Positions 16,501 to 34,494 of a DNA stretch of 35,886 nt are shown piece by piece (position 1 is the stretch's first letter; every line of letters starts with the position of its first letter). The stretch is from Merismopedia glauca CCAP 1448/3. GTDB taxonomy: Bacteria > Cyanobacteriota > Cyanobacteriia > Cyanobacteriales > CCAP-1448. The notes under the pieces were generated by a model. That model saw only the letters and a program-made list of their open reading frames with translations. It searched no databases and had not been told where the DNA came from. The translations under genes and the position numbers were made by a program. The DNA lies in the NCBI RefSeq assembly GCF_003003775.1, contig NZ_PVWJ01000050.1, positions 1 to 35,886 of the forward strand, given 5' to 3'.

Positions 16501-17146
16501 CTGGGGTCAGGGCGCGGTTTCGGTGTGCCAGAATGGGCGCTTGGGGAATGAGCGATCGCAAATCGTCGTCCTCTAGCAGTTCGATTTTCTGAACTTCGTG
16601 GGAGGTACGGAAGCCATCGAAGAAATGGAGGAAGGGGATGCGAGAATCTAAAGTAGCGCGGCTGGCGATCGCGGCAAAGTCTTGAGCCTCTTGTACGGAA
16701 GCCGAACACAGCAAGGCGCATCCGGTAGTGCGGGTAGCCATAACATCGCTATGGTCGCCGAAAATCGAGAGTCCTTGGGCGGCAAGCGATCGCGCGGCGA
16801 TATGGATGGCAATAGGCGTGAGTTCCCCAGCGATTTTGTAGAGGTTGGGAATCATTAACAGCAAACCTTGGGAAGCTGTAAAGGTAGTGGCTAGCGATCC
16901 GGCTTGGAGCAATCCGTGAACGGCTCCAGCAACGCCCCCCTCGCTTTGAAGTTGGACGACGGTGGGAATTGCGCCCCAAATATTCGGTTGTTTGGCAGCC
17001 GACCAAGCATCAGCCCACTCAGCCATTGGGGAGGAAGGAGTAATGGGATAAATGGCGATCGCTTCGTTGAGGCGGTAGGCAATACGCGCCACAGCCTCAT
17101 TGCCATCGAGGGTTACAAATTTAGGGTTTTTCATCATGTCAGACAT
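13523..17146 (-). CDS. nifJ: Pyruvate:ferredoxin (flavodoxin) oxidoreductase
   Basis: A single-chain, 1207-residue enzyme that oxidatively decarboxylates pyruvate with CoA to acetyl-CoA and CO2 and reduces ferredoxin or flavodoxin. Visible features: YPITPSSPMAEW near the N-terminus; two ferredoxin-type clusters (C695/C698/C701/C705 and C751/C754/C757/C761); C825, C828, C853 and C1093 for the cluster near thiamine diphosphate; and the thiamine diphosphate motif GDGWAYDIGYGG (984-995). All 12 cysteines are present. No clear ribosome-binding site precedes the first ATG; Met4 or Met5 are alternatives. It follows hypC by 54 nt and overlaps the next gene by 4 nt. The setting is a hydrogenase operon with no other nif gene, so a fermentative role is more likely than nitrogen fixation. 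Confidence 0.97.
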   Translation of the reverse strand: MSDMMKNPKFVTLDGNEAVARIAYRLNEAIAIYPITPSSPMAEWADAWSAAKQPNIWGAIPTVVQLQSEGGVAGAVHGLLQAGSLATTFTASQGLLLMIPNLYKIAGELTPIAIHIAARSLAAQGLSIFGDHSDVMATRTTGCALLCSASVQEAQDFAAIASRATLDSRIPFLHFFDGFRTSHEVQKIELLEDDDLRSLIPQAPILAHRNRALTPDRPVIRGTAQNPDVYFQARETVNSFYEACPKLVQAAMDDLAGLTGRAYRLFDYYGDPAAERILVLMGSGCETVEETVDYLIERGEKIGVIKVRLYRPWSLEAFVAALPESVRAIAVLDRTKEPGSLGEPLYQDVVSTLVESDRAHIRVVGGRYGLSSKEFTPGMVKATLDNLTAAKPKNHFTIGIIDDVTHTSLAFDSDFTIEPDSVVRAIFYGLGSDGTVGANKNSIKIIGEETENYAQGYFVYDSKKSGSVTVSHLRFGSHPIRSSYLVESANFVACHQWEFVEKYEILKEAKTGATFLLNSPYSPQETWQRLPHQLRRIILARQLKFYVIDATQVAREAGMKGRINTVMQVCFFAIAGVLPREEAIAQIKKSIRKTYGKKGEEVVQMNLTAVDRTLDRLYEVSVSEPVSLGSTTIHPPIPNNAPTFVRDVLGEMIARHGDRLPVSALPVDGTYPSGTAKWEKRNIAAEIPVWDSDVCVQCGKCVMVCPHSVIRAKVYEPDKLANAPANFKSTPARDPDWHDLRFTIQVAAEDCTGCGICVDVCPAKNKLEPRFKAINMAPQLPLREQERENWDFFLNLPNPDRTHLNLHKIGQQQLQEPLFEFSGACSGCGETPYIKLATQLFGDRMLVANATGCSSIYGGNLPTTPWTHNAEGRGPAWSNSLFEDNAEFGLGFRIALDRHIEQAIALLQDLASQDDSPLPADLVTALINTPQTDEAEIYEQRSRVELLKHYLTNWSDRPNLSEKISSLLSLADYLVKKSVWIIGGDGWAYDIGYGGLDRVISSDRNVNILVLDTEVYSNTGGQMSGSTPKGAVAKFAAGGKSSPKKDLGLMAMTYGNVYVASVAMGAKDEHTLRAFLEAESYNGPSLIIAYSHCIAHGIDMQKGMQQQKLAVDSGRWLLYRYDPRRTERGENPLLLDSRWSETDRRASPKIPIEAAMYSENRFKMLARSQPEDAKRLLKEAQSEVNARWKMYQYLAARSTSPSQEIPS

Positions 17147-17182
17147 TTTTGGTTTTCGGTCGATCGAGGATTCTTATTCCTT

Positions 17183-17201
17183 GTAAGGGCGCAAAGCTTG
17201 C
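17183..17201. repeat. GTAAGGGCGCAA partial hairpin repeat
   Basis: GTAAGGGCGCAAAGCTTGC lies in the 54-nt gap between hypC and nifJ. It matches the left arm of the complete hairpin at 24376-24403 but lacks the closing GCCCCTAC, so it looks like a truncated copy. Confidence 0.5.
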
Positions 17202-17446
17202 TAACCCCTGACTTGGTGCAAGACATCTAATGTTTGCTGTGCCTCATCTTCATCCAAGATGCTGAGGGCAAAACCTGCATGAACGATGACGTAGTTGCCG
17301 ACAGTGGCTTCGGGAACGTAGGCGAGGTTTACTTCTTTCAAAATGCCGCCAAAGCTGACTTTGCCGGAACGATAGAGGTAGCCATTCTCTCGATCTGGGG
17401 GTGGTTCGAGAATAGTTACAATTTGTCCGGGAACGGCTAAACACAT
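17201..17446 (-). CDS. hypC: Hydrogenase maturation chaperone HypC
   Basis: A small chaperone of 81 residues that, with HypD, carries the Fe(CN)2CO moiety to the large hydrogenase subunit. It begins MCLAVPGQI, whose Cys2 is essential in the family, and contains VSFGGILKEVNLAYVPEATVGNYVIVHAGFALSILDEDEA, the standard HypC core. The frame stays open 165 nt further upstream, but the family N-terminus and the strong AAGGAGG (17453-17459) fix the start at 17446. It overlaps the 3' end of hypF by 10 nt. HypD, its obligate partner, is not in this window. Confidence 0.96.
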   Translation of the reverse strand: MCLAVPGQIVTILEPPPDRENGYLYRSGKVSFGGILKEVNLAYVPEATVGNYVIVHAGFALSILDEDEAQQTLDVLHQVRG

Positions 17447-19866
17447 AACAAACCTCCTTGAATTTCTTTTAGTACCCAATAGGCTCCCAATACCTGTCCT
17501 GGTGCGATTCCCCCATCGTTGGGCGGGATTTGATGGTGCCAGTAGGGGATAAATCCTTCGCTGCGGAGTCGCTCGATCGCTCGATCTAGCAAATAGCGAT
17601 TTTGAAAACATCCTCCAGTCAGTACTACTTTCTCTATTCCAACTCGATGAGCGATCGCTACGATGATTTCTACCAAAGTGTTGTGAAATTTGGCGGCGAT
17701 CTTACCTTGAGATTCCTTGTCGTTAAGGATGGCAGCAACCATTGGCTTCCAGTCTAAAACCCAGTTTCCAGCAGAATCTTGCTCCAAATGGTAAGGATAG
17801 ATCGAGGAAGTAGGCTCCAAAATACTTTCTAATTGCATGGCAGATTCTCCCTCAAAGCTATTTTTCTGGCACAATCCTATAAGAGAGGCGATCGCATCGA
17901 ACAATCGTCCGATACTGGAAGTTTTGGGTGTATTAACGCGCTTTTGGAGCATGGTCTGCAATACTTTCACTTCTTGAGCCGAGAAAGCTTGTAAAGTCGG
18001 GCAATCGCATCCAAAGGCTGCTTGTTTGAAAGCTTCGTACAGTAGCCCCAAAGCAGCGCGACGCGGTTCCCGTGCGGCGCGATCACCCCCCAATAGCGGA
18101 AACGTTCGTAAGTGGGCGACGCGATCGAATCCGTTAGAATCTGAAATCGCTAGAAATTCGCCGCCCCAAAGAGTCGCATCTAAACCGTAGCCAGTACCAT
18201 CCCACGCAATGCCCAACACGGGAGGATTTAGATTGTTATCCACCATCCCAGACAAAACGTGAGCGTAGTGGTGCTGAATCGGAATAACTGAAGCGTTCAG
18301 TTGCCGACTCAAAGCTTGGGCAAATTGACTAGAAAGATAATCGGGATGGGCATCGCAGGCGATCGCTACGGGTTGGGCTGCGTAGAGTTTCAGCAACCGA
18401 TCAATGGTTTCTTGAAATCGGGCGAAGGTGCGATCTCGATCTAAATCCCCAAGATGTTGACTGACAAGAATCTGGTTTTCAATTGCCAGAGCTACTGTGT
18501 TTTTTAGATGACCGCCTACAGCTAGAATGCAAGGGATTGCTTCATCCGATCTTAGATTGTCTTTACTGGGAAACGCGGAAAAACTTTTCGAGGCTTCTAT
18601 TTGAAAGGGTATGAGGCTGGAAATCTCTTTTCTTGGTTCGGTAGAAAGAGGCGAAGGGGCATATCCTCGCGCCCGTCGTAGAATCGTAGGGCGATCTTTA
18701 ATAACGAATACTACAGAATCATCCACAGGTCTAGCGATCGCTCGATCGTGCATCAGGAAGGTGTCGGCAATGCTGCCAAGATGCTCTAAGGCTTCTGCAT
18801 TATCGATACAAATCGGTTCTTGCGATCGATTGCCGCTAGTGGCGACTACCGGAAATTTTAGTTCTGCTAGCAAGAGGTGATGCAGTGGAGTATAGGGAAG
18901 CATCACTCCAAAAGTGTTGCTATTGGGTGCAATAGACGCAGCCAAGCCATCTGTTTTCCGACGCAATAAGACAATTGGGGCTGCTGCTGAGAGGAGAAAT
19001 TCTATCTCAACACTAGATCCAAAACAGTCTTCTCGTACCAGATCGAGACTCGGATACATCACCGCTAAAGGTTTCGTCGGGCGATGTTTGCGATCGCGCA
19101 AGCGTTGCACCGCTTCTTCATTCCTGGCATCAACGATAAAGTGGAAGCCGCCTAATCCTTTGAGCGCTAAAATCTTACCCTGTCGAATGTAATCTGCTGC
19201 CAGTGCTATTAATTGACGAGCCGAAGCACCTGGGGCGATCGCATTCCCCTTATTATCCCAAAGTTCCAGATGGGGGCCGCAAACCGAACAAGCATTGGGT
19301 TGGGCGTGAAAGCGTCGATTCTGTGGGTTTTCGTACTCCTGCTGGCAGTTCGGACACATAGCAAAGGCTTGCATCGTCGTATAGGGGCGATCGTAGGGTA
19401 GCGCCGTCAGAATGCTATAGCGGGGGCCGCAGTGGGTGCAGTTAGTAAAGGGATAATAGTACCGTCGATTTTGCGGGTCAAAGATCTCGCTCAAACAATC
19501 AGAACAGGTTGCCAGATCGGGTAAAATCCAGGCTGTTTTGCCAAATGAACCCTCATCAGAGGGATAAATCTCAAAAGCATCGTAGCCGCAAGGCAGCAGC
19601 CAATCAGTTTCCACTTGAGAGACGATCGCGTGGGCGGGGCGATCGCGTTCCAATCGTTCCCAAAAAGTTGTCAGTACCGATGTTATTCCTTCTACTTCGA
19701 TATCGACACCGTTGCGATCGTTTCTCACCCATCCTTTTAACCCCAGTTCCGTGGCTAGAGTATAGACAAAAGGGCGAAATCCAACGCCTTGCACCATTCC
19801 CCGTACCCGCACCTTTAAGCGTTGCAGGGGTGAAGCGATCGGGATCGATGAAGTAGTTCGGTTCAT
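17437..19866 (-). CDS. hypF: Carbamoyltransferase HypF
   Basis: HypF uses carbamoyl phosphate and ATP to make the thiocarboxamide on HypE that becomes the cyanide ligands of the Ni-Fe site. The 809-residue protein shows an acylphosphatase domain ([14 protein letters not shown], 21-34), two paired zinc motifs (C121/C124 with C143/C146, and C171/C174 with C193/C196), a YrdC-like domain ([23 protein letters not shown]) and a Kae1-like domain ([25 protein letters not shown]). An ATG 45 nt upstream is in frame, but the start at 19866 has GGAGG with 7-nt spacing and makes an ATGA overlap with the hypB stop. The stretch between the YrdC and Kae1 domains looks longer than usual. Confidence 0.95.
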
Positions 19867-20612
19867 CGGCAAACCTCCAGAAGCATTAGGGACTGGAGAT
19901 AATTCAGCCATGCTTCCATCCCCAAACCCTTGCGGGCAGAAACTTCAAATAACTTGGCTTGAGGTGCCATGCGGCGAATATTGGCGATCGCCGTTTCTCG
20001 ATCAAATTCTACAGCTTCGGCAAGATCGATTTTGGAGAGGATAACCACATCCGCCGACTGGAAAGCAGTAGGGTATTTTAAAGGTTTATCTTCCCCTTCG
20101 GTAACTGAAAGTAAAACTACGCGCAGGGTTTCGCCCAAATCGTAGGCAGCAGGACACACCAGATTTCCCACATTTTCAACGATTAAAATCTCTAAATTGG
20201 TTAAATATAGATGAGATGCCGCATGAGACACCATATCGGCTTCTAGGTGGCAAGCCGTTCCAGTGGTAATTTGTAAGGCAGTTGCACCCGCAGCCTTGAG
20301 CCGCAGAGCATCATTTTCGGTAGCTAGATCCCCGACGATGACCCCGACTTTATGGGCGCGATCGCCTTTACTTTTAGCTATTTGCTCGATTAAGGTAGTT
20401 TTCCCCGATCCTGGAGAAGACATAATATTCAGTACGAGTAACCCGCAGGATTGGAAGCGATCGCGGTTTTGCATGGCAAAGCTATCGTTTTTGGCAAGTA
20501 AGCGTTCGCGGACTTCGATCGTATGGGTATGTTTGTGGTGATGGTGGTGTGGTTCGCCCTCAATTTGAACCTTTGCAGTATCGACTTGACTACATCCGCA
20601 ATCCGTACACAT
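19863..20612 (-). CDS. hypB: Hydrogenase nickel-insertion GTPase HypB
   Basis: A GTPase that with HypA delivers nickel to the hydrogenase large subunit. The 249 residues begin MCTDCGC, the high-affinity nickel motif, followed by a histidine-rich stretch ([11 protein letters not shown], 22-32) that probably stores nickel. The P-loop is SSPGSGKTT (65-73); C121-H122 and C153 ([10 protein letters not shown]) mark the GTPase-domain metal site, and SKIDL is the guanine-specificity segment. It abuts hypA with no intergenic base and overlaps hypF by 4 nt. It is somewhat shorter than many HypB proteins because the His-rich region is compact. Confidence 0.97.
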
Positions 20613-20954
20613 TTAAGACACCTCCAACGACGTAAGTTCTAGTTCTTTTCCCTGGACGATCGCCATACTCCAGGTTTGACAGGTAGGACATTCGTAATCC
20701 CATTGCGTCGGTTGAAATTGGGTTTGACAAACATGACAAAAACAAAGCGTGGGACAAGATTCAACTATCAGTTTGGCGCGTTCGGCGATCGTGCCTTGGG
20801 TGACGACATCGAAAGCAAATCGCAAGGCATCTGGTTCTACTCCCGAAAGATCGCCAATACGCAAGGTTATTTGCTCGATGCGGCTGGCGCGTTCGCGGGA
20901 GGCATAGTTGAGGGCGATCGCTAAGGCATTTTCCATTAAGCCAACTTCGTGCAT
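20613..20954 (-). CDS. hypA: Hydrogenase nickel chaperone HypA
   Basis: A 113-residue zinc and nickel protein that works with HypB. It starts [11 protein letters not shown]; the Met-His-Glu N-terminus binds nickel in this family, which sets the start at 20954 although the frame is open 54 nt further upstream. The zinc site is C73/C76 and C89/C92 (CHVC and CPTC). It overlaps the hoxW 3' end by 19 nt and ends directly at the hypB start, so translation is probably coupled. Confidence 0.95.
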   Translation of the reverse strand: MHEVGLMENALAIALNYASRERASRIEQITLRIGDLSGVEPDALRFAFDVVTQGTIAERAKLIVESCPTLCFCHVCQTQFQPTQWDYECPTCQTWSMAIVQGKELELTSLEVS

Positions 20955-21412
20955 GGCAATTGCTCCCGATCGGTTGTCAGGTGGGCTTTCATGACGTTCA
21001 GACTCCAATCCATGCCATCTTTGGCGATCGCGGACAGGGATGTGCCGAAGTCAAATTGTCTGGCTGGAATCAGAATTTGATAAGCTACTGGATCTGAGTG
21101 ATAGAGGGTGCTGGCTAGGTGCAAAAGAACGCTCGGACTCCAGCTATGATCCAGGCTGCAAGGAGATGCATTGGGTTGTAAGCGTTCTAGGCGGGGGCGA
21201 TCGTGATGTTCGTTTCCTAAATCCTCCCAAGCATCGATGAAAAATACTTCCTCAACTTGAGCGATTTCCGCAGCTAATTCTGGCAGGAGTTGATGGACGG
21301 CAAGCGATCGCAGGTTCGGCAAGTTCCACTCAGCCACCTCTTCAGCCACGAGAAAGCCAACTCCATCATCGCTTCGTAATGTATTGCCGTAACCAATTAC
21401 TAGGGTTTTCAT
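20936..21412 (-). CDS. hoxW: Hydrogenase large-subunit maturation protease HoxW
   Basis: An endopeptidase of the HyaD/HybD type that trims the HoxH C-terminus after nickel insertion. It has 158 residues. The N-terminal signature [15 protein letters not shown] (5-19) is intact; D16, D60 (FIDAWED) and H89 (SLDHSWSP) occupy the nickel-sensing positions of the family. It overlaps hoxH by 4 nt (ATGA), so it is translated with its substrate. The match between protease and the C-terminal tail of the adjacent HoxH supports the name. Confidence 0.93.
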
Positions 21413-22833
21413 CGGTACACCTCATCGAGTAAGCTGCCATCTGCGGCAATTAACTGAAGGTGCAGGGGCATTTGTCCGACTGCATGGGTAGAACAGGAAA
21501 GGCAAGGATCGTAACAGCGAATCCCCGCTTCTACCCGATTGAGCAAGCCTTCGGGAATTTCCGAACTGTGGATGTAATGTTTGGCAATTTGGGCTACGGT
21601 TTTATTCATTGCCAGATTATTTTGTCCGGTGGCAATAATTAGATTGACTTTCTCGATTAATCCGCGTTCGTCTACCTGGTAATGATGAAACAGCGTTCCC
21701 CGTGGGGCTTCGCTTACGCCCACTACATTAAGTTCGTTCACGCCACCGCGCGCGCGACAGCGATGGGACAAAATATCGGGGTCATCTACTAACTCCTGAA
21801 TTTTTTCAAGACAAGCTAGAATTTCAATCAGACGGGCGTAGTGATACAGGAAAGAAGAAGTGGGAAAACCCCCAGAGCGATCGCGCAATTCCTGCAACTC
21901 TCGATCTGCATTTTCCGTTCCGATCCGGTTGCAAACGTTCAGCCGCGCCAAGGGACCGACGCGATAAATACCGTCAGGATAGCCCAAGGGCTGGTAGTAA
22001 GGAAACTTGAGATAAGACCAGGGTTCGACGGCTTCCCCTAAAAACTGGTGATAATCATCTTCGCTGAGTCCATCGGCGACGATGTTTCCCTGGCTATCCG
22101 TGAATCGTAGTTTCCCATTATAATGCTCCCATTCTCCATTAGAGCCGACTAATCCCATATATAAGGTGGGAAATTCACCAAATATATCTATTTCTTCCCT
22201 CAGTTGCCCGTCCAGCATTCCCTTGAATAATCCCAGCGCCAGAGTCACTGTATCGAAGGCTTCTGGCAAGCGATCGACAATCCACTGTCGTCCTTCTGAG
22301 GAAAGGGGCGATCGCACCCCACCTGGAACCGTCCAAGCTGCATGAATTTTGCGCGCTCCCAGTTTCTCTATAATGGTTTGACCGAACTGCCGCAGCCGAA
22401 TTCCCGCCCGTGCTAGATCGGGATTAGCCGCAATCAGTCCAAAAATGTTCCTTTTCGCCGGATCGCTGTCCCAGCCCAAGAGAAAATCGGGACTACTCAG
22501 GTGAAAAAAAGAAAGTGCGTGAGATTGAGTAATTTGCGCCAAATTCATCATCCGCCGCAATTTTTCAGCAGCAGGCGGAATCTTGACCGCTAAAATTTTG
22601 TCCCCAGTTTTGGCTGAAGCCAGGAGATGGCTGACCGGACAAATACCGCAAATCCGGGCGGTAATCCCTGCCATTTCGGTAAAAGGACGACCTTCGCAGA
22701 ATTTCTCGAAGCCCCGATACTCCACCACATGAAAGCGCGCATCCGAGACTTCCCCAGCATCGTCTAAAAAGATAGAAATTTTGGCGTGTCCTTCAATACG
22801 GGTGACGGGATCGATAACTACTGTTTTACTCAT
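21409..22833 (-). CDS. hoxH: Bidirectional Ni-Fe hydrogenase large subunit HoxH
   Basis: The catalytic subunit carrying the Ni-Fe centre, which reversibly oxidises H2. It has 474 residues. The N-terminal nickel motif is [10 protein letters not shown] with C62 and C65; the C-terminal motif is DPCLSCSTH with C444 and C447. By family precedent HoxW cleaves after H450, removing the last 24 residues (AVGQMPLH...DEVYR). It is separated from hoxY by 251 nt that hold a GTAAGGA array and a MITE copy, whereas it overlaps hoxW downstream. Confidence 0.97.
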
Positions 22834-22872
22834 AAGTCGCTCTCGTATTTAATTAGTTGGTTGGGGGAATGA

Positions 22873-22907
22873 GTAAGGAGTAAGGAGTAAGGAGTAAGGA
22901 GTAAGGA
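22873..22907. repeat. Tandem heptamer GTAAGGA x5
   Basis: Five exact copies of GTAAGGA lie just upstream of hoxH. The heptamer resembles a ribosome-binding sequence but sits 40 nt or more from the hoxH ATG and on the opposite strand sense, so it is a repeat array, not a translation signal. Confidence 0.95.
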
Positions 22908-22930
22908 GGGAATCTGACCACAAATAAGTT

Positions 22931-23063
22931 CGTTTTTTGGCGTTGCTGAATCAAGGTATGAACTAGTGCATGAAGTCAGAAGTCAGAAGTAGGGGCGAAA
23001 GAAAACCCAATCAACAATCAACAATCAACAATTCATACGTCAAATCAGCAATGCCCGTTTTTT
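22931..23063. mobile_element. MITE copy C (117 bp) between hoxH and hoxY, inverted
   Basis: The element spans 22939-23055, in the opposite orientation to copies A and B. Ends are GGCGTTGCTGAATCAAGG and, in reverse complement of the right end, GGCATTGCTGATTTGACG. Exact 8-bp direct repeats CGTTTTTT flank it (22931-22938 and 23056-23063). Inside are three ATCAACA units (23010-23030) and a separate GAAGTCA array (22972-22992, last unit degenerate) where A and B have a different segment. Confidence 0.88.
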
Positions 23064-23084
23064 CTCCTTTGCGCCTCTGCTCCT

Positions 23085-23633
23085 CTACCCAAACTTAATC
23101 ATGTCCCGACCTTCCATTACAGGCATTTCGCCGCGCAAAAGAGGTTCTAGAGTAGCTCGAATGCGATCGGCTGGCGGCGGACATCCCGGCATATAAATTT
23201 CTACGGGAACCACCTGATGCACGGGCAAAACCTGCTCTAATAATTCCGGTACGATCCCTGGTGCGTGGGGGAGTTGGGGGGAGTGTTCTGCTAGTTCCAA
23301 ATAGCCCCTCTTGAGTACGGGTTCGGCACCGCCCAACATATTTCGCATCCCCGGAACGTTAGCTGTAACCGCGCAATCTCCGAAGGAAATCAGAGTTTTG
23401 GTTCGTTGGCGAACTTTTAGCAGTAATTCCAAATTGTCTTCATTGGCAACCCCGCCTTCTACCAAACATACATCCACATTTTGGGGATACTCCTTAATAT
23501 CCGAACCGACGGGACTATATACCACATCCACCTGCTGGGCAAGATCGATCAGCCATTCGTCCAAATCGAGAAAAGACATATGACAGCCCGAACACCCCGC
23601 CAACCAAACCGTAGCGAATCTTATCTTGTCCAT
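23085..23633 (-). CDS. hoxY: Bidirectional Ni-Fe hydrogenase small subunit HoxY
   Basis: It carries the [4Fe-4S] cluster that passes electrons between HoxH and the diaphorase module. The 182 residues start MDKIRFATVWLAGCSGCH. Cluster ligands are C14 and C17 (CSGC), C87 (SFGDCAV) and C151 (MPGCPPP). The frame is open 114 nt further upstream, but that region overlaps hoxU and lacks family similarity; the start at 23633 has GGGAG at 8 nt and gives the usual length. It overlaps the 3' end of hoxU by 13 nt. Confidence 0.96.
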   Translation of the reverse strand: MDKIRFATVWLAGCSGCHMSFLDLDEWLIDLAQQVDVVYSPVGSDIKEYPQNVDVCLVEGGVANEDNLELLLKVRQRTKTLISFGDCAVTANVPGMRNMLGGAEPVLKRGYLELAEHSPQLPHAPGIVPELLEQVLPVHQVVPVEIYMPGCPPPADRIRATLEPLLRGEMPVMEGRDMIKFG

Positions 23634-24337
23634 TGGTGCTTCTCCCGTGCCGTGACTAAAAACTCCAACTTGGCGCGATGGCGTTCTTTTTCGCCAGTGG
23701 TGCTGCCTTGGTGGAAGAGCGCCCCAGTAGGACAGGCATCGACGCATTTACCGCAAGACGTACAGGCATCAACTTCGCCCCAAGGCTGATGCAAACCCGA
23801 CACGATAAAACAATGTTCGCCGCGCTGAGCTACATCCCAAACGTGCGCCCCTTCAATTTCATCGCAGACTCTAACGCAGCGCGTACAGAGAATGCAGCGA
23901 TTGTGGTCTATCCCAAAATGTTCGTGGGAGAGATCTACCTTCCGATCTGGAAAGCGATAGGGAAAGTGCGAGTGATCCATCCCCACTCGAACCGCCAGAT
24001 CCTGAAGTTCGCAGTTGCCGTTCGCCACGCACACCGCACAGACGTGATTCCCTTCAGCAAAGAGCAACTCCACATTCATGCGCCGAAATTCTTGCAGTTT
24101 AGGTGTATTAGTTTGCACCACCATCCCTTCTGCAACTTCTGTAACGCAAGCAGGTTGAAGCTTATGACTGCCTTCAATTTCCACCAGACACATCCGACAG
24201 GCAGCAGGAGGAGAAACCCCTTCCAAAAAGCACAGCGTCGGAATATCAATACCCGCTTCTTTTGCCGCTTGCAGTAGGGTTGCTCCCTGTTTGATCGCGA
24301 CACCTTTTCCGTCAATTTTTAGCGTTTTTACAGACAT
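23621..24337 (-). CDS. hoxU: Hydrogenase diaphorase subunit HoxU
   Basis: An iron-sulfur wire of the diaphorase module, related to the N-terminus of complex I NuoG. In 238 residues it has a plant-type [2Fe-2S] site (C36, C47, C50, C64), a His-Cys3 motif (H98, C100, C103, C109) and two [4Fe-4S] motifs (C148/C151/C154/C158 and C192/C195/C198/C202), all intact. It lies 66 nt after hoxF, a gap occupied largely by a hairpin, and overlaps hoxY. Confidence 0.97.
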   Translation of the reverse strand: MSVKTLKIDGKGVAIKQGATLLQAAKEAGIDIPTLCFLEGVSPPAACRMCLVEIEGSHKLQPACVTEVAEGMVVQTNTPKLQEFRRMNVELLFAEGNHVCAVCVANGNCELQDLAVRVGMDHSHFPYRFPDRKVDLSHEHFGIDHNRCILCTRCVRVCDEIEGAHVWDVAQRGEHCFIVSGLHQPWGEVDACTSCGKCVDACPTGALFHQGSTTGEKERHRAKLEFLVTAREKHQWTR

Positions 24338-24375
24338 AATAGTTTAGTTCTCTAAATGATATATTCCCTGTCACT

Positions 24376-24403
24376 GTAAGGGCGCAAGGCTTTGCGCCCC
24401 TAC
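24376..24403. repeat. GTAAGGGCGCAA hairpin between hoxF and hoxU
   Basis: A 28-base hairpin: GTAAGGGCGCAA (24376-24387) and TTTGCGCCCCTAC (24391-24403) pair almost perfectly around a small GGC loop. It fills nearly half of the hoxF-hoxU gap and would form in the operon mRNA. Related pieces lie at 17183-17201 and 34554-34625, so it is a dispersed repeat as well as a possible mRNA-processing or attenuation element. Confidence 0.65.
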
Positions 24404-25993
24404 TTAATCCTGCTGCAATAGTGCCAAATACTCATCTTTGAAATACCGTAAAGTACTCAATACAGGGTTTGGGGCTGATTGTCCTAAACCGCACAGACTC
24501 ATTTCCTTGACCATCTGACACAGCGCTTCCATCTGTTCGATGTCTGCTAAGGTAGCCTGACGATTCACAATTTTGGTGAGCATCTCATGAAGTTGAACCG
24601 TTCCCGCCCTACAGGGAACGCACTTGCCGCAACTTTCTCCCCGACAAAAATCCATATAAAACTGGGCAATTTCAACCATGCTGGTAGAGTTATCCATAAT
24701 AATCATGCCGCCCGAACCCATCATCGTGCCGAGCCGTTGCAACGATTCGTAATCCACTGGCGTATCGAAAAACTCTGCGGGGATGCAGCCTCCCGATGGT
24801 CCTCCAGTCTGTACTGCTTTGACTTGACCTTCAGACGCGCCGCCGCCCATTTCTGCAACGATTTGGTGCAGTGTCGTTCCCATCGGTACTTCAATCAATC
24901 CCGTATTTTTGACCTGACCCGTCAAGGCAAAAACTTTTGTGCCCTTACTTCCCTCAGTACCGATCTGACTGTACCAATCTGCTCCTCGACGAATAATGGG
25001 AGTAATATTGGCATAGGTTTCGACGTTATTAATCAGGGTGGGACAGCCCCAAAGTCCTGCCTCAGCCGGATAAGGAGGACGGGGACGGGGATTGCCTCGA
25101 CCCCCTTCGATTGAATGAATCAACGCCGTTTCTTCACCGCAAACAAATGCCCCCGCACCAATCCGAATGTCTATTTTGAAGTCAAATCCCGACTCAAAAA
25201 TTTGACTCCCCAGCAATCCGTATTTCTTCGCCTGCTGAATGGCTTTATTTAAATGTGCGATCGCGAGTGGATATTCAGCCCGAACGTAGATAAACCCACG
25301 ATTGGCACTGATCGCGTAACCAGCGATCGCCATCCCTTCCAGCACCCGATGCGGATCGCTCTCCAACACGCTACGATCCATAAATGCTCCAGGATCGCCC
25401 TCATCGGCATTGCAGATGACATACTTTTGCTCTCCTGGCATCTTAGCCACCGTCGCCCATTTCAACCCCGTCGGATAGCCGCCACCACCCCGTCCCCGCA
25501 ATCCACTTTTGGTAATTTCCTCAATGACTTGGGCGGGGGTCATTTCGTAAAGCGCCTGGTACAGTGGCTCATACCCGCCCACCGCGATATATTCTTCGAT
25601 CCGTTCGGGATCGATCTGACCGCTATTTTCCAACACTATGGGCATTTGTCCCGCAAAAAACGGTTGATGGGGATCGCACGGTTGCGCTGTAGCAGTTTCG
25701 CCTTGCAATGAGGCGGCAATGGAAACTGCATCTGCTGTCGTGACTTCCTCGTACAGCATCCCGTCAGGATCGGTAGCCACTAAAGGACCGCGCCCGCAAA
25801 AACGCAGACAACCAACGCTGGCAACTTCTACCTCTTTCTTTAACCCTGCGGTGGCGATCGCCTCTTCTAAAGCTTGTTTTACTGCCTCCGAACCAGAAGA
25901 TTGACAACCTGCTGCGGTACAGCACCGAATGCGTTTTGATTTACGGCGATCGCGCTCCTGTTGGGCGATATGGTATAGCTCGGCAATATCCAT
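24404..25993 (-). CDS. hoxF: Hydrogenase diaphorase subunit HoxF (NAD/FMN)
   Basis: The NAD(H)- and FMN-binding subunit, related to complex I NuoF with a NuoE-like N-terminal [2Fe-2S] domain. In 529 residues: C25, C30, C62 and C66 for [2Fe-2S]; the nucleotide-binding glycine motif GLRGRGGGGYPTGLKW (164-179); CNADEGDPGAFMDR for FMN; and the [4Fe-4S] ligands C455, C458, C461 and C501 (ESCGKCVPC then SLCGLG). It follows hoxE after 43 nt. No disruption is seen. Confidence 0.97.
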   Translation of the reverse strand: MDIAELYHIAQQERDRRKSKRIRCCTAAGCQSSGSEAVKQALEEAIATAGLKKEVEVASVGCLRFCGRGPLVATDPDGMLYEEVTTADAVSIAASLQGETATAQPCDPHQPFFAGQMPIVLENSGQIDPERIEEYIAVGGYEPLYQALYEMTPAQVIEEITKSGLRGRGGGGYPTGLKWATVAKMPGEQKYVICNADEGDPGAFMDRSVLESDPHRVLEGMAIAGYAISANRGFIYVRAEYPLAIAHLNKAIQQAKKYGLLGSQIFESGFDFKIDIRIGAGAFVCGEETALIHSIEGGRGNPRPRPPYPAEAGLWGCPTLINNVETYANITPIIRRGADWYSQIGTEGSKGTKVFALTGQVKNTGLIEVPMGTTLHQIVAEMGGGASEGQVKAVQTGGPSGGCIPAEFFDTPVDYESLQRLGTMMGSGGMIIMDNSTSMVEIAQFYMDFCRGESCGKCVPCRAGTVQLHEMLTKIVNRQATLADIEQMEALCQMVKEMSLCGLGQSAPNPVLSTLRYFKDEYLALLQQD

Positions 25994-27348: not shown

Positions 27349-28173
27349 ATGAGTTGGGAAGGTAATTTAAAGCTAGAATTTGCTTGTCGAGATGGAAGTA
27401 CGCAGCTAGTTTTAGATTACTCTCAAGCACCGTTGAAGGTGCAAAGACCGTTTTATCCAGAAGGAAATGAGGTTTGTCACAGTACGATTTTGCATACAGC
27501 CGGTGGGGTTGTGGGAGGCGATCGCCTCAACTTAAATCTCCATCTTTCTCCCCAAAGTCAAGCTTTAGTGAGTACTGCCGCAGCCAATAAAATCTATGGC
27601 AGTAACGGGCAAATAGCGCTTCAAAATATCAAAATTCAGCTAGATTCTGAAGCTTGTTTGGAATGGCTGCCGCAAGAAACAATTGTATTTGATGGTGCAA
27701 TTTATCGACAGAATTTAACTGTAGAATTAGCCCCGCAAGCGAGTTGGTTGGGATGGGAAATTACTAGATTTGGGAGAACTGCGCGGGGAGAAAAGTTTGT
27801 TTCGGGAGATTGGCGATCGCATACTGAAGTTTGGCAAGCTGGACAACCTTTGTGGATTGACCGACAATGGTTACCTGGAGACGTATCTGCGCTCGAAAGT
27901 CCTCACGGTTTGGCTGGATGCGCGATCGCTGGTAGTATGGCATGGATTGGCAGTGCTGTGACTCCAGAAATGGTAGCTGAAGCCAGGAAGTTATGGGTGT
28001 CTTCCCCATACGGCTCTCAAGCAGGCGTAACTCGACTAGAGCGCGGGATGTTGTGTCGCTATCTGGGGAATGACATCGCTGAAGTTCGTAACTGGTTCAT
28101 TAGCGTCTGGCAGCTTCTCAGACCGTTTTATTTAGCTAGAAATATCTGTTTACCGAGAGTTTGGCAACTTTAA
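27349..28173 (+). CDS. ureD: Urease accessory protein UreD
   Basis: A 274-residue chaperone (UreD/UreH) that binds the urease apoenzyme and helps UreF and UreG load nickel and carbon dioxide. Family features are [29 protein letters not shown] near residues 35-63, [12 protein letters not shown], and [12 protein letters not shown]. The end ([15 protein letters not shown]) is also typical. ureA follows after 2 nt. UreD shares nickel use with the Hox operon on the other side of the divergent region, but the two maturation pathways are separate. Confidence 0.95.
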
Positions 28174-28175
28174 GT

Positions 28176-28478
28176 ATGCAACTAACACCTCAAGAAAAAG
28201 ATAAACTCCTAATTTTCACTGCTGGTCTAGTCGCAGAAAGACGCAAAAATAGAGGCTTAAAGCTGAATTATCCAGAAGCTGTTGCCTACATTTCGGCAGC
28301 GATTCTAGAGGGTGCTAGAGATGGTAGCACGGTGGCAGAATTGATGACTTACGGTACAACTTTACTGACTAAAGATGATGTGATGGAAGGGATCGCGGAA
28401 ATGTTGCTAGAAGTGCAAGTAGAAGCTACTTTCCCCGATGGAACTAAGTTAGTTACAGTGCATCATCCTATTCGTTAA
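28176..28478 (+). CDS. ureA: Urease gamma subunit UreA
   Basis: The small structural subunit of urease, 100 residues starting [23 protein letters not shown] and ending [11 protein letters not shown], with the family core [13 protein letters not shown] and ILEGARDG. The ATG at 28176, 2 nt after the ureD stop, gives the standard length; an upstream in-frame TTG inside ureD is not needed. ureB and ureC, which usually follow, are absent; a heptamer array begins 35 nt downstream. Confidence 0.96.
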
Positions 28479-28512
28479 GTACCTGTGCCAAATTAATTTA
28501 ACATTTTGGTAA

Positions 28513-28575
28513 GTAACGAGTAACGAGTAACGAGTAACGAGTAACGAGTAACGAGTAACGAGTAACGAGTAGCGA
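28513..28575. repeat. Tandem heptamer GTAACGA x8 plus one variant
   Basis: Eight exact copies of GTAACGA (28513-28568) are followed by one variant, GTAGCGA. The array lies directly downstream of ureA. Confidence 0.96.
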
Positions 28576-28821: not shown

Positions 28822-31119
28822 ATGACAGAACTAAGGGTTAACTTAACTAACTGCGACCAAGAACCAATTCACATTCCAGGGCTAATTCAGCCTCACGGTG
28901 TTTTGTTGGTTCTCAAAGAGCTAAAACTCGAAATTATCCAAGTTAGCCATAACACTTCTGAGTTGCTCGGTCATCAGCCTCAAGAATTACTGGGTAAACC
29001 CTTGTCAGATCTGCTCGATGCCAAGCAAATTGCGGCTATCTGGCAATGCCTGTCAGTAGAATTTGAGAGTATCAATCCCTTAAATATATCCATCAAAGGT
29101 CAAACCAAACCCCTGCGTTTTGATGGCATCGTTTATCGCTGGGATAGCGCGATCGTTCTGGAACTGGAGCCGAAAAAGGCGCGACAGAAAACAGACTTCT
29201 TTGATTTTTACCAGCGCGTCAGAGGAACAATTACCAAGATCCAAAAAGCACCTACATTGCTAGAAATGTGCCAGATTGTGGTCAAAGAAGTGCGAAGAAT
29301 CACTGAGTTTGAGCGCGTTATGGTCTATCGGTTTGACACCGAAGGTGCTGGTAGCATCATTGCCGAAGATAAGCCAGATGGGGCGACTCCCTATCTAGAC
29401 TTACACTATCCCGCTAGCGACATTCCCCAACAAGCCAGACAGCTATACACCCTCAACTGGCTGCGGTTAATCCCAGATGTCAATTATCAACCCGTAGAGT
29501 TAATTCCAGCGAACAATCCCGCAACCGATCGCCCGCTAGATATGAGTTTGTCGGTGTTAAGGAGCGCGTCTCCGATTCATATTGAGTATCTTCAAAATAT
29601 GGGCGTGACCGCTTCTATGTCCATCTCACTGATTCAAGATCGGAAATTATGGGGACTGATTGCCTGCCATCACTCGTCACCCAAGTATGTTCCCTATGGG
29701 GTGCGAACGGCTTGTGAGTTCATTGGACAGGTGATGTCGCTAGAACTGGCAACTAAGGAAGCCAACGAAGACTTGGATTACAAAGTGCGTTTGCAGTCGC
29801 TGCTAACCAAGTTTGTCGAATCCCTGTCCCAATTTGAATCCTTCCTAGATGGGATCGTGCAACTGGAATCAAACTTGCTGGATCTGGTGAGTGCGTCAGG
29901 AGCAGTGGTTTGTCTGGGCGAAGGCAAAGCCAAACGTTGCATTCACATCGGTGAAACGCCTCCAGAAGCGGCTCTGCCTGCTTTGCTAGACTGGCTCAAA
30001 CATGAGATACAACTAAATAATCTGTTTCACACGCGATCGCTGTCTCAGGTTTATCCACCAGCAGAGGAATTTAAGGGAATCGCTAGTGGGTTGTTAGCCC
30101 TGGCAATTTCTCAAGTTCACCAAAATTACATTCTCTGGTTTCGTCCTGAAGTGATGCAAACGATTAAATGGGGTGGAAATCCCAATAAAGCGGTAGAAGC
30201 TCTAGAGGATGGCAGTTTGCAGCTACATCCTCGGAAATCATTTACCTTGTGGCAGGAAACGGTCAATGGCTATGCGCTGCCCTGGAAAACTTGTGAAATC
30301 GAAGCCGTTGCCGAACTGCGGAGTTTGCTCGTTGGCGTTATTCTCAGACAGGCAGACGAACTAGCAGCCGTTAATATAGAGTTGAAACGTAGTAACGACG
30401 AACTAGATTCCTTTGCCTACATCGCCTCCCACGATCTTAAGGAACCTCTGCGGGGAATTCATAACTATGCCAATTTCTTGATGGAAGATTACGCCGAAGT
30501 GTTAGATGAAGACGGGATTAGAAAGCTGCAAACCTTGGTGCGGCTAACCCAGCGCCTGGAAAACCTAATTAACTCCCTGTTGCACTTCTCCCGCCTAGGA
30601 CGCACCGAACTCTCTTGGCAAACAGTAAATTTGAATGCTTTAGTCCAACAGGCGATCGCTACTTTGAAGATGAGCCAACAACATAGTTCCGTCCAGTTTC
30701 GTCTGCCTCGCCCTTTACCCACAATCAAGGGCGATCGCACTCAACTCAATGAATTATTCACCAACCTACTGAGCAACGCCAGCAAGTATAACAACAGCCC
30801 CGAAAAATGGGTAGAAATAGGTTTTATAGATAATAGCGCCAGAAAAGCGCCCGCCACTCCCTATTCCCAACTTCCTACTCCCTATACTTTCTACGTTCGC
30901 GACAACGGCATCAGCATTCCCCAAGAACACCTAGACAAGATTTTTCAGATTTTCCGTCGCTTGCACGGACGGGACGAGTATGGCGGTGGCACTGGGGTAG
31001 GTTTAACCATTGCGCGCAAGATAGTAGAACGACATGGCGGCGAGATATGGGTAGAATCTATGGCTAATCAAGGCAGCACATTTTACTTCACTCTACCCAG
31101 GGAGGCAATGGATGACTAG
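28822..31119 (+). CDS. Bacteriophytochrome-type sensor histidine kinase
   Basis: A 765-residue red/far-red photoreceptor kinase. Order: PAS (about 1-115, with C11 in TNCDQEPIHIPGLIQPHG), GAF (about 140-310, with PASDIP at 197-202), PHY (to about 505, with the tongue motif PRKSF at 470-474), HisKA (H537 in ASHDLKEPLRG) and HATPase (DNGISIP, GTGVGLTIA). The Cys that binds phycocyanobilin in Cph1-type phytochromes is Ile252 here (LRSASPIH), with His253 kept; the N-terminal Cys is the biliverdin-binding position of BphP/CphB types. It therefore probably binds biliverdin. The ATPase domain contains a Pro/Tyr-rich insert encoded by degenerate heptamers. The next gene, a receiver, overlaps by 8 nt. 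Confidence 0.93.
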   Translation: MTELRVNLTNCDQEPIHIPGLIQPHGVLLVLKELKLEIIQVSHNTSELLGHQPQELLGKPLSDLLDAKQIAAIWQCLSVEFESINPLNISIKGQTKPLRFDGIVYRWDSAIVLELEPKKARQKTDFFDFYQRVRGTITKIQKAPTLLEMCQIVVKEVRRITEFERVMVYRFDTEGAGSIIAEDKPDGATPYLDLHYPASDIPQQARQLYTLNWLRLIPDVNYQPVELIPANNPATDRPLDMSLSVLRSASPIHIEYLQNMGVTASMSISLIQDRKLWGLIACHHSSPKYVPYGVRTACEFIGQVMSLELATKEANEDLDYKVRLQSLLTKFVESLSQFESFLDGIVQLESNLLDLVSASGAVVCLGEGKAKRCIHIGETPPEAALPALLDWLKHEIQLNNLFHTRSLSQVYPPAEEFKGIASGLLALAISQVHQNYILWFRPEVMQTIKWGGNPNKAVEALEDGSLQLHPRKSFTLWQETVNGYALPWKTCEIEAVAELRSLLVGVILRQADELAAVNIELKRSNDELDSFAYIASHDLKEPLRGIHNYANFLMEDYAEVLDEDGIRKLQTLVRLTQRLENLINSLLHFSRLGRTELSWQTVNLNALVQQAIATLKMSQQHSSVQFRLPRPLPTIKGDRTQLNELFTNLLSNASKYNNSPEKWVEIGFIDNSARKAPATPYSQLPTPYTFYVRDNGISIPQEHLDKIFQIFRRLHGRDEYGGGTGVGLTIARKIVERHGGEIWVESMANQGSTFYFTLPREAMDD
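30856..30883. repeat. In-frame degenerate heptamer array in the phytochrome kinase
   Basis: ACTCCCT, ATTCCCA, ACTTCCT, ACTCCCT in succession, encoding most of TPYSQLPTPY (residues 679-688) between two strands of the HATPase domain. It resembles the intergenic array at 28692-28712. Confidence 0.65.
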
Positions 31120-31585
31120 TACTTTAGCACCTCTACTCAGGCAAACTCCACCCTTATTGATTGTGGAAGATAGCGATGAAGATTTTGAAGCCTTAATGCG
31201 ATTTCTGCGACGCTCTCCCCTGGTTATCCCCGTCGAACGCTGCATGAATGGCGAGCAAGCATTAGCTTTTCTTCACCATACCGACCAGTACGCTAATTGC
31301 GATCACTTCCCCCGTCCCGGCATGATTCTACTAGACCTAAACTTGCCTGGAATCGATGGGCGAGAAGTGTTGCGTCGGCTCAAACTCGACCATAACTTAA
31401 AAACTATTCCTGTGGTCATCTTTACCACGTCAAATCACCCCAATGATATTGAAACCTGTTACCAGCAAGGAGCTAATAGCTATATCATTAAACCAATTGA
31501 TATTAACCAACTAAAACGAAATGTTCAGACGCTGGTGGATTATTGGTTTGAAGTGACTAGGCTCCCTGATGGCTCCGCAGACTAA
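31112..31585 (+). CDS. Rcp1-type response regulator
   Basis: A 157-residue single-domain receiver of the type paired with cyanobacterial phytochromes. It has the acidic pair in IVEDSDEDFEAL, phosphoacceptor Asp in MILLDLNLPGIDGREVL, Thr in VIFTTSNHP and Lys in YIIKPI. The longer insertion before the phosphoacceptor (HHTDQYANCDHFPRPG) is typical of Rcp1 proteins. The start codon overlaps the kinase stop (ATGACTAG), so it is probably co-translated and is the direct phosphoacceptor of that kinase. Confidence 0.94.
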   Translation: MTSTLAPLLRQTPPLLIVEDSDEDFEALMRFLRRSPLVIPVERCMNGEQALAFLHHTDQYANCDHFPRPGMILLDLNLPGIDGREVLRRLKLDHNLKTIPVVIFTTSNHPNDIETCYQQGANSYIIKPIDINQLKRNVQTLVDYWFEVTRLPDGSAD

Positions 31586-31587
31586 TT

Positions 31588-34494
31588 ATGAGTCAGATTC
31601 AGCGTACTGTTTTAATCATTGATGATTCTCCCGAAGATCGCCAGCTATATCGGCGGTATCTCTTGCAGGATAGGGATTACCACTACACCATTTGGGAAGC
31701 ACAATTGGGTCAAGAAGGATTAGAGTTATGGCAGCGTTACCAACCAGATGTAGTTTTGCTGGATTACCGCTTGCCAGATTTAGATGGACTGGAGTTGCTG
31801 GCTCAAATACCGATCCAGATGCCGCATCCCTGCTTACCCGTAATTATGATTACAGGGCAGGGAAATGAAGCGATCGCCGTCCAAGCAATGAAAGCTGGTG
31901 CCCAAGACTATTTGCTCAAAGAGCAGATAACCCCAGATAGTTTGCATCTAGCACTGAATAGGACGATTGAAACCGTGCGGTTACGCACCCAACTGCAACA
32001 GCGCCTCGAACGAGAGCGGCTAGTGGCGCAGATTACTCAGCAAATTTATCAATCGCTGGAACTAGATGAAATTCTCCAGACAACTGTGACAGAGGTGCGG
32101 CAGTTTCTCAAAACCGATCGGGTGCTAATTTTTCGCTTACAGTCAGAGGGCTGGGGTCAGGTAACTAAAGAATCTGTCAGAACTGACTGTATACCCCTGC
32201 TGTCCACCAGCCTCCATGACCCCTGTTTGAACGAACACTACATCGAATCCTTCCGTCAAGGATTAATCACCGTCAAACCCGATATTTACGATAGCAGCAT
32301 CGATCCCTGTCATGTGGAACTCCTAGCTCAGTTGCAGGTACGAGCCAATCTAGTCGTGCCGATTCTCCAAGACAAGCAATTATGGGGGATGCTGATTGTC
32401 CATCATTGTACAGCCCCTCGCCAGTGGCAATCTTTAGAAATTGATTTGCTCAAAGAATTAGCCACTCATGTGGGCATTGCCTTGCAACAGGCAGAACTTT
32501 ATCAGCAAGCCCAGAGCGAACTGGTTGAGCGCAGACGGGCAGAACTGGCATTGCGGGAAAATCAGGTTCAGCTTCAGCAGCAACTGGCGGAAATTGAAGC
32601 TATTTACCAGTCTGCCCCCATTGGCTTGAATGTCTTGGATACTGACCTTCGCTTTGTGCGGATCAATCAACGACTGGCGGAAATCAATGGGTTATCGGTT
32701 GCAGACCATATTGGGCGCACTGTGCGGGAATTACTTCCCGAGCTAGCAGATACTGCCGAACCGTTTCTCCGTGCCATCCTGGAAACTGGGGAACCCCAGT
32801 TGAATGTGGAAATTCAAGGTGAAACTCCGGCGCAACCTGGAGTACAACGCACTTGGCTAGAACACTTTTTGCCCTTGAAAAATGGCGATCGCACCATCGG
32901 CATCAGCACGGTTTGTGAAGAGATTACCGATCGCAAACTTGCCGAAGAGGCTCTGCGGGAAAGCCAGGAGCGCTATCAGTGTTTGGCAGAATTGATCCCG
33001 CAATTAGTCTGGACAGCCAGTGCAGAAGGAATGCTACTTGATGTCAATCAACGCTGGTCAGATTATACAGGTTTAACCCTTGCACAAGCACAAATCTGTG
33101 GCTGGGAAGCAGTGATTCATCCTGACGATCTACCTGTTCTGAGCCAACAATGGGCAGTGACTGTAGAAACTGGCACCCCCTATCAAGCCGAAGGTCGAAT
33201 GCGACGAGCCGATGGAGTGTATCGCTGGCATTTACATCAAGCAATACCTCAAAGGAACGAACGCAATCAAATTATTTGGTTTGGTACGGCAACAGACATA
33301 GAAGCTCAAAAACAACTAGAAATTGAGCGCGATCATCTGCTAGAACGGGAAAAAGCCGCACGGACTGAAGCTGAAAGAGCCAGCCGCCTCAAAGACGAGT
33401 TTTTAGCCATCTTGTCCCACGAGTTGCGATCGCCTCTCAACCCCATCTTAGGTTGGACTAAACTCCTGCAAACCCGCAAGTTTGATGCAGCCAAAACTGC
33501 TGAAGCTCTCTCTACAATTGAACGCAACGCCAAATTACAAACTCAACTAATTGATGACCTACTCGATGTGGCTCGGATTTTACGCGGCAAGCTAACTCTG
33601 AATGCAGCACCCATGAATTTAGTATTTATGATTGAGTCAGCTATTGAAACGGTTCAAACTGCGGCGGTAGCTAAATCAATTTCGCTCCACCCAGTGTTGC
33701 CTAATATTGGGCAGGTTTCGGGTGATTCTGTGCGTTTACAGCAAATAGTTTGGAATCTGCTCTCTAATGCCATTAAGTTCACCCCCAACGGTGGACAAGT
33801 AATGATAGAGCTAGAGCAAATAAACGATATGGCTCAAATTAAAGTGACAGACACTGGCAAAGGCATTAGTTCGGACTTCCTACCCCACATTTTTGAGTCT
33901 TTCCGTCAAGAGGATGCTTCCATTACCCGTCAGCATGGCGGTTTGGGGCTAGGGCTGGCGATCGTTTATAATCTAGTCGAAGCGCACGGGGGCACAATCT
34001 CGGCTGCCAGTCCAGGTCTGGGACAAGGAGCCACATTCACTGTCAGGCTACCTCTACTTAAGGTTGAACCCCAAAGCGATCGCCCTCATGACTCACTCAA
34101 CGGCGAACTTGACTTAACAGGCATCCGAGTTGTGCTGGTTGATGATGACCCCGATACCCGCGAGTTGCTCGCCTTCATACTCAAAGAGTATGGAGCAGAG
34201 GCAATGGTAGTAGCATCGGCGGGTGAAGTTTTGACACTCCTGGAATCCTTCAAACCTGATATCTTGGTTACTGATATTGGGATGCCAGATATGGACGGTT
34301 ATACGTTACTGAGGCAAGTACGTTCTCTACCACCCGAACGAGGAGGACAAGTTCCCGCGATCGCCACCACTGCCTATGCCAGAATGGAAGATCGGCAACA
34401 AGCACTGACAGCAGGTTTCCAAAAGCATATTGCCAAACCAATCGATCCGAGTAAGTTGGTTGCAGCGATCTCTGATTTGCTGAGCCAGAGGTAA
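31588..34494 (+). CDS. Hybrid histidine kinase REC-GAF-PAS-PAS-HK-REC with cyanobacteriochrome-like GAF
   Basis: A 968-residue soluble kinase, starting 2 nt after the Rcp1-type gene. Order: receiver (D59, K111); coiled linker; GAF (about 145-305); PAS (about 330-450); PAS with PAC (about 460-575); HisKA with H611 (LSHELRSPLNP); HATPase (NAIKFTPNGG, DTGKGIS, GLGLGLAIV); C-terminal receiver (D896, K950). The GAF has C241-H242 in CHVELLAQLQVRANLVVPI, the canonical chromophore Cys-His of cyanobacteriochromes, and D211-P-C213-L, close to the DXCF motif that supplies a second Cys in blue-absorbing types. It may therefore bind a bilin; this is unproven, since some related GAFs keep such residues without pigment. 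No membrane segment is visible. The first receiver may take phosphate from the upstream phytochrome. Confidence 0.9.
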   Translation: MSQIQRTVLIIDDSPEDRQLYRRYLLQDRDYHYTIWEAQLGQEGLELWQRYQPDVVLLDYRLPDLDGLELLAQIPIQMPHPCLPVIMITGQGNEAIAVQAMKAGAQDYLLKEQITPDSLHLALNRTIETVRLRTQLQQRLERERLVAQITQQIYQSLELDEILQTTVTEVRQFLKTDRVLIFRLQSEGWGQVTKESVRTDCIPLLSTSLHDPCLNEHYIESFRQGLITVKPDIYDSSIDPCHVELLAQLQVRANLVVPILQDKQLWGMLIVHHCTAPRQWQSLEIDLLKELATHVGIALQQAELYQQAQSELVERRRAELALRENQVQLQQQLAEIEAIYQSAPIGLNVLDTDLRFVRINQRLAEINGLSVADHIGRTVRELLPELADTAEPFLRAILETGEPQLNVEIQGETPAQPGVQRTWLEHFLPLKNGDRTIGISTVCEEITDRKLAEEALRESQERYQCLAELIPQLVWTASAEGMLLDVNQRWSDYTGLTLAQAQICGWEAVIHPDDLPVLSQQWAVTVETGTPYQAEGRMRRADGVYRWHLHQAIPQRNERNQIIWFGTATDIEAQKQLEIERDHLLEREKAARTEAERASRLKDEFLAILSHELRSPLNPILGWTKLLQTRKFDAAKTAEALSTIERNAKLQTQLIDDLLDVARILRGKLTLNAAPMNLVFMIESAIETVQTAAVAKSISLHPVLPNIGQVSGDSVRLQQIVWNLLSNAIKFTPNGGQVMIELEQINDMAQIKVTDTGKGISSDFLPHIFESFRQEDASITRQHGGLGLGLAIVYNLVEAHGGTISAASPGLGQGATFTVRLPLLKVEPQSDRPHDSLNGELDLTGIRVVLVDDDPDTRELLAFILKEYGAEAMVVASAGEVLTLLESFKPDILVTDIGMPDMDGYTLLRQVRSLPPERGGQVPAIATTAYARMEDRQQALTAGFQKHIAKPIDPSKLVAAISDLLSQR

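Follow-up and report, generated by a model that had tools for sequence, protein, structure and literature searches.

A PPHK-like hybrid kinase with a predicted dual-cysteine cyanobacteriochrome domain in Merismopedia glauca

The kinase gene and its GAF domain

The stretch of DNA analysed here (the window) comprises positions 1–35,886 of contig NZ_PVWJ01000050.1 of Merismopedia glauca CCAP 1448/3, read on the forward strand. Its subject of interest is a hybrid sensor kinase gene, the third and last member of a tight cluster that also encodes a bacteriophytochrome kinase and an Rcp-like response regulator (table 1). The product is best explained, at a probability of roughly 0.75, as a two-input sensor kinase of PPHK architecture in which a cyanobacteriochrome (CBCR) domain with two bilin-site cysteines would serve as the light input. 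PPHK is the 'dual sensor histidine kinase' of JSC-1, for which structures have been solved (PDB 6OAP, 6OAQ, 6OB8). Pfam assigns two Response_reg stretches to the kinase, of which residues 848–961 score better and the N-terminal receiver (REC) is the other. Together with HisKA and HATPase_c, these justify the description 'dual-receiver hybrid kinase' given by a first-pass annotation of the same DNA. None of the motifs inspected points to a dead kinase: the residues expected for phosphotransfer are in place (D59, T89 and K111 in the first receiver, H611 in HisKA, D896 and K950 in the second receiver), as are the N and G boxes.

Table 1. Features of the three-gene cluster, in window coordinates.
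Feature	Coordinates	Strand	Basis
Bacteriophytochrome kinase, PAS_2-GAF-PHY-HisKA-HATPase; N-terminal Cys C11, no Cys at GAF 'SPIH' site	28822..31119	+	Pfam, alignment
Rcp-like single-domain response regulator; D75, K127	31112..31585	+	Pfam, residue check
Hybrid sensor kinase, REC-GAF-PAS-PAS-HisKA-HATPase-REC; 968 amino acids, ATG start	31588..34494	+	Open reading frame list, Pfam
N-terminal receiver, residues 1–131; acidic pocket D12/D13, T89, K111, expected phospho-acceptor D59	31588..31980	+	PPHK alignment, residue check
GAF, residues 158–299, cyanobacteriochrome type	32059..32484	+	Pfam, PDB matches, trees, Foldseek
DPCL motif, residues 211–214; second Cys C213	32218..32229	+	Alignment
Canonical bilin Cys-His, C241-H242	32308..32313	+	Alignment
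PAS_4, residues 342–450	32611..32937	+	Pfam
PAS_3, residues 484–564	33037..33279	+	Pfam
HisKA, residues 602–664; H611 in SHELRSP, expected phospho-acceptor	33391..33579	+	Pfam, residue check
HATPase_c, residues 712–823; N, G1 and G2 boxes present	33721..34056	+	Pfam, residue check
C-terminal receiver, residues 848–961; D896, K950	34129..34470	+	Pfam, residue check

The assignment of the GAF domain to the cyanobacteriochromes, also proposed in the first-pass annotation, is well founded. A 180-residue stretch containing it matches PPHK (6oap, 214.4 bits), miRFP670nano (129 bits), TePixJ (3vv4, 117.8 bits) and further CBCRs in the PDB. The domain aligns with TePixJ (DPCF/CH) and PPHK (DQYF/CH) gap-free through both cysteine motifs, so the DPCL/CH pair is more than a chance motif. 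C241-H242 falls in the Cys-His column of the CBCR alignment, as the earlier annotation had expected of the canonical bilin cysteine. The domain has the bilin-GAF fold and groups with characterised CBCRs. Bilin supply appears possible, as the genome holds three matches to ferredoxin-dependent bilin reductases and two to haem oxygenases.

Relatives were gathered by a contig scan, from which the best 80 of 99 confirmed relatives were used, and by genome protein searches, from which the loci of the best matches were taken; individual loci are cited below by L numbers. GAF segments below 120 bits or 150 model positions, and duplicates, were left out, and the cut-off for the added set was 150 bits. 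In the resulting 152-row GAF alignment, eight rows of which are PDB references, a second cysteine stands in the DXC column of 94 rows, and all 94 also carry the canonical cysteine. An exception is L162, a row added later, in which the second cysteine is kept (ASCL) and the canonical one is lost (AQ). A quick tree placed the window GAF in a 14-row set (support 98) of domains that lie mostly downstream of a receiver. The careful tree contained 66 rows (52 of the 152 earlier rows and 14 new) with insertion columns left out. Here the domain belongs to a 37-row, dual-Cys, REC-linked clade (98/91) nested in a 44-row set (100/96). C213 and C241 are each retained in 35 of the 37 rows, and the row nearest to the window, 78–79% identical, has both. 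The window GAF falls with CBCR-type domains and not with non-pigmented GAFs, the placement by which the first-pass annotation had proposed to judge it; few of the characterised DXCF members were taken into the trees. The same genome encodes a paralogous REC-GAF protein (L137/L007, contig C3) that has DPCL/CH and, as in L021, some 19 residues inserted immediately past the motif. L097, L099, L100, L102 and L104 group with this paralogue and are similar at the insertion site.

Comparison with known CBCR classes places the domain close to, but not strictly within, the DXCF type. The earlier reading of DPCL as DXCF-like holds in so far as D211 and C213, two residues on, occupy the DXC positions and the canonical cysteine is present. 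The literal closing Phe is absent. Because Leu214 ends the motif, the domain is classed as dual-Cys DXC[F/L]. With TePixJ and the DXCF CBCRs of known structure (3VV4, 4GLQ, 6PRU) it shares the Asp, the second Cys and the canonical Cys-His at aligned places. It differs from TePixJ in the Leu that follows the second Cys, in its separate branch and in its output, a hybrid kinase where the chain names of TePixJ point to a chemotaxis protein. The extended red/green CBCRs (AnPixJg2, NpR6012g4, Slr1393g3) likewise have Leu at the last motif position (DTHL and DTYL in the single-Cys references) and the canonical Cys-His. Their highly conserved motif is WXDXXL, according to an excerpt of PMC11284453. 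The window GAF, however, has L209 in place of the Trp two residues ahead of the Asp, and has a cysteine at 213. The DXCIP CBCRs, as excerpted from PMC5578081, share an aliphatic residue after the Cys of the Asp motif but, unlike the window GAF, lack the canonical Cys; the motif of the window GAF continues with LN rather than IP. L162, with its lone second cysteine, recalls these single-Cys receptors.

The first-pass annotation had treated the Leu as a telling variant, and this idea did not survive the comparison. After the second Cys, the 94 rows have Phe in 63, Leu in 24, Ile in 4, and Tyr, Trp and Met in one each. The contig scan used the pattern CLNEHYIE, which came from the window itself and contains its Cys-Leu, so the Leu counts from L009–L088 are inflated. 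Within the 37-row clade, the 35 cysteine-bearing rows comprise 17 with Leu, 16 with Phe and one each with Tyr and Met. The 21 clade rows that came from pattern-free protein searches (L090 and up) include eight with Leu, ten with Phe, one with Tyr, one with Met and one without the Cys, so that DXCL occurs in 8 of 20 cysteine-bearing rows even there; the remaining 16 divide into nine with Leu, six with Phe and one without the Cys. By parsimony, at least 12 changes between Phe and Leu are required on the 152-row tree, 10 on the 66-row tree (29 Phe, 19 Leu) and 8 within the 37-row clade. DXCL as the mark of a special lineage is therefore rejected, there being no single origin. The residue does partly follow descent, since shuffling the labels 300 times never gave fewer than the 10 changes required on the 66-row tree (mean 15.2, range 10–19). 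Frequent in the clade and repeatedly interchanged with Phe, Leu is an ordinary alternative at this position. One paper excerpted on red/green CBCRs counts Phe here among the residues that constrain red/green cycles, and Leu may for that reason tune the photoproduct colour. On these distributions, Leu214 would be a common change that is neutral or mildly tuning. No publication naming DPCL or DXCL was found among the open-licence papers searched.

Kinship with PPHK and the two GAF types

The match to PPHK extends over both N-terminal domains. Residues 1–309 of the window kinase align end to end with residues 1–309 of PPHK (phmmer, 432 bits), the REC-GAF tandem standing in the same register; counted without gaps, 73% of the receiver positions and 60% of the GAF positions are identical. 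An AF2 (AlphaFold2) model of residues 1–314, built from 23 sequences, has a mean pLDDT of 88.8 and a pTM of 0.67. With this model as query, Foldseek ranks 1–6 in the PDB are all PPHK chains (identity 65–66%). Alignment with VIA-align to the three PPHK entries gives Z 31.5–31.8 over 302–307 residues at 3.2–3.3 Å; the other entries listed reach at most 24.9. Thus the two proteins share the order REC then GAF, the canonical Cys-His and the predicted fold and arrangement. They differ in that PPHK has DQYF, without a second Cys, and in that its GAF lies outside the 37-row clade, among domains here called GAF2-type.

Receivers and GAF domains give different answers on ancestry. A single REC clade of 37 rows (89/98; the bootstrap is not fully settled and inner forks are mostly unresolved) unites the receivers of PPHK, L028 and the window and does not include those of L057 and L148. 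In the careful tree the PPHK GAF joins the GAF2-type domains (81/82), beside an NpR3784 derivative (87/70). Alignment identities to the PPHK GAF are 73% for the second GAF of L012 and 72% for the GAF of L028, but 61% for the window GAF and 57% for the first GAF of L012. These values support the distinction of two GAF types, on which a reading of GAF exchange is built. The window kinase as a plain PPHK orthologue is not supported for the GAF, on trees and identities; orthology is retained for the receiver.

How far the two GAF types stand apart was assessed by approximately unbiased (AU) tests on groups named after inspection of the tree. A grouping of the 35 nearest dual-Cys rows with the GAFs of PPHK and L028 and no others was rejected (p-AU 0.002). 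Uniting the 37 clade rows with four PPHK-type (GAF2-type) domains gave p-AU 0.049, and the 35 rows with all six such domains 0.052. A single clade of the 37 rows and all six cost 28.4 log units and was not rejected (p-AU 0.105), and the claim is for this reason one of two GAF types, not of two unrelated lineages. Judged by sequence, the types may be close kin, for example by tandem duplication. Both occur behind a receiver in three proteins: L012 (DPCF, DFYF; recovered again as L144), L145 (HPCL, DRHF) and L148 (DPCF, DTYF). The order is the same in each, with the dual-Cys GAF first and the single-Cys GAF second.

The simplest reading of this pattern is GAF exchange, or alternative loss, beside a kept receiver; fusion may also have run in the other direction. 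A wider scheme can be drawn, with odds that appear evenly balanced. One phospho-input receiver, frequently encoded in a cluster that includes a bacteriophytochrome and an Rcp-like regulator, would have been kept across cyanobacteria. The adjoining GAF would have been swapped between dual-Cys DXC[F/L] and single-Cys PPHK-like types, and the REC-GAF-GAF proteins would be intermediates, or relics, that lost one type or the other; the two types themselves may have arisen by tandem duplication or by recruitment. If exchange took place, evolution could change the colour of the second input and leave the logic as it is. From its sequence, the window kinase looks largely ordinary save for its apparently exchanged colour-sensing domain, and what is probably new about it is that the light input was exchanged while the phospho-input receiver was kept.

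PPHK provides a structural model for one kinase that integrates phosphorylation and light signals. According to its PDB titles, PPHK was captured with BeF3- bound, presumably on the receiver, and in a green-absorbing Pg state. Excerpted accounts report that PPHK integrates light and phosphorylation as a logic OR (PMC8584932) and that Pg lies at 562 nm (PMC11480761). The window kinase combines a receiver 73% identical to that of PPHK with a colour sensor of another, dual-Cys type, and its likely phospho-donor phytochrome is encoded next to it; such a relative would permit a direct test of whether the logic is independent of the photochemistry. Natural controls are available in the tandem-GAF proteins, in L018, which lacks both cysteines, and, for measuring what the last DXCF residue does, in Phe/Leu pairs.

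Two inputs and competing explanations

The genes upstream supply a candidate for the phosphoryl input. The regulator gene shares its first 8 bases with the phytochrome gene, and 2 bases separate its end from the ATG of the kinase. Cys 11 of the phytochrome sits in NCDQEPIHIPGLIQPHG, SPIH stands in the place of the GAF cysteine, and eight aligned homologues likewise have a cysteine near the N-terminus and none in the GAF. An N-terminal Cys without a GAF Cys is the sequence signature of biliverdin-binding bacteriophytochromes. With its PAS-GAF-PHY-kinase order, the protein is accordingly classified, on sequence grounds, as a biliverdin-type, far-red-type bacteriophytochrome. It contains the sole PHY-domain match in the genome. 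Its G1 box reads DNGISI (30901–30918, residues 694–699); the usual form is DNGIGI. Among the 34 loci of the 37-row clade with more than 1 kb upstream, a response regulator was seen in 19, a phytochrome in 16 and both in 16, the window included. These counts are lower bounds, many loci being covered for no more than about 1.5 kb upstream. L028, with a PPHK-like GAF (DRYF), also has both partners upstream. The cluster is not described in the titles and abstract openings of the literature searched; the PPHK paper (doi 10.1073/pnas.1910855116) may describe it.

The proposed mechanism is as follows. (i) Phycocyanobilin would attach at C241 and might be isomerised to phycoviolobilin. (ii) In the dark state, C213 would add to C10 of the bilin, moving absorption to the blue or violet; this prediction assumes a reversible adduct like that of TePixJ C494. 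According to an excerpt of PMC6955287, both C494 and C522 of TePixJ bind bilin. (iii) Light would break the C213–C10 bond, yielding a longer-wavelength form between teal and orange. The exact photoproduct colour is beyond prediction from sequence data, and the covalent bilin, the colour pair and the second linkage of the window GAF are themselves predicted. (iv) The N-terminal receiver would accept a phosphoryl signal at D59, as in PPHK. (v) A helical spine would carry both inputs to the HisKA/HATPase module and the C-terminal receiver, so that red/far-red and short-wavelength light could be integrated in one kinase.

Several observations count against this two-input scheme and lend weight to others. 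The PPHK structures do not show dual-Cys chemistry because the PPHK GAF has a single Cys, and the TePixJ pocket residue Q526 (excerpt of PMC6955287) aligns with a Leu in the window GAF. If the bilin were held at C241 alone and Leu214 prevented the C213–C10 adduct, the colour pair would be green/red or orange/green and would involve no Cys ligation. The Leu of the single-Cys red/green references fits such a single linkage, and AM1_6305g1 is reported, in an excerpt of PMC11284453, to form phycoviolobilin without needing the second Cys. This outcome is nevertheless unlikely: C213 persists in all but two of the 37 clade rows and has Leu beside it in 17, which suggests that its thiol is used, and DXCL recurs on separate branches. 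Cysteine loss does occur among relatives. L099 has lost the second Cys alone and L162 the canonical Cys alone. The clade member L018 (L018:4608-5543) has lost both (DPYL, PDD) and keeps phytochrome, response regulator and receiver, which means that some relatives can do without the light input; L018 is possibly a light-blind natural variant. By analogy with L018, the window GAF might be non-pigmented or vestigial, with the kinase run through its receivers and PAS domains only. That both cysteines and the motif Asp are intact, and that the nearest row also has both cysteines, makes this highly improbable.

The coupling to the phytochrome is the other point of dispute. It is gene position that makes the phytochrome kinase next door, or the circuit to which it belongs, a plausible phospho-donor. 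No response regulator was seen in 15 of the 34 loci and no phytochrome in 18, upstream stretches often being only about 1.5 kb; the phytochrome link therefore does not hold throughout the clade. The kinase could instead be an independent photoreceptor, driven by light and uncoupled from the phytochrome, with clustering that reflects co-regulation and a receiver phosphorylated by the kinase itself or by another one. This alternative is possible but doubtful, given that the genes of the window overlap or abut and that both partners recur in 16 of 34 loci, with several genus names among the named ones. The two-input kinase is preferred over all three alternatives.

The remainder of the window

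Ahead of the phytochrome gene lie a UreD gene and a second open reading frame that overlaps it (27349–28478); the latter presumably encodes a urease-gamma-like protein. Between this frame and the phytochrome gene, about nine copies of the heptamer AGTAACG occupy 28512–28575, an array that resembles the short tandem repeats which occur in cyanobacteria. Genes of fermentation/hydrogenase type are encoded on the reverse strand at 12504–25993, for dihydroorotate-dehydrogenase-like, pyruvate:ferredoxin oxidoreductase, HypF, nickel-dependent hydrogenase and NuoF-like subunit products. A further hybrid kinase at 5232–8960 combines CHASE2 and Hpt domains with two receiver stretches.

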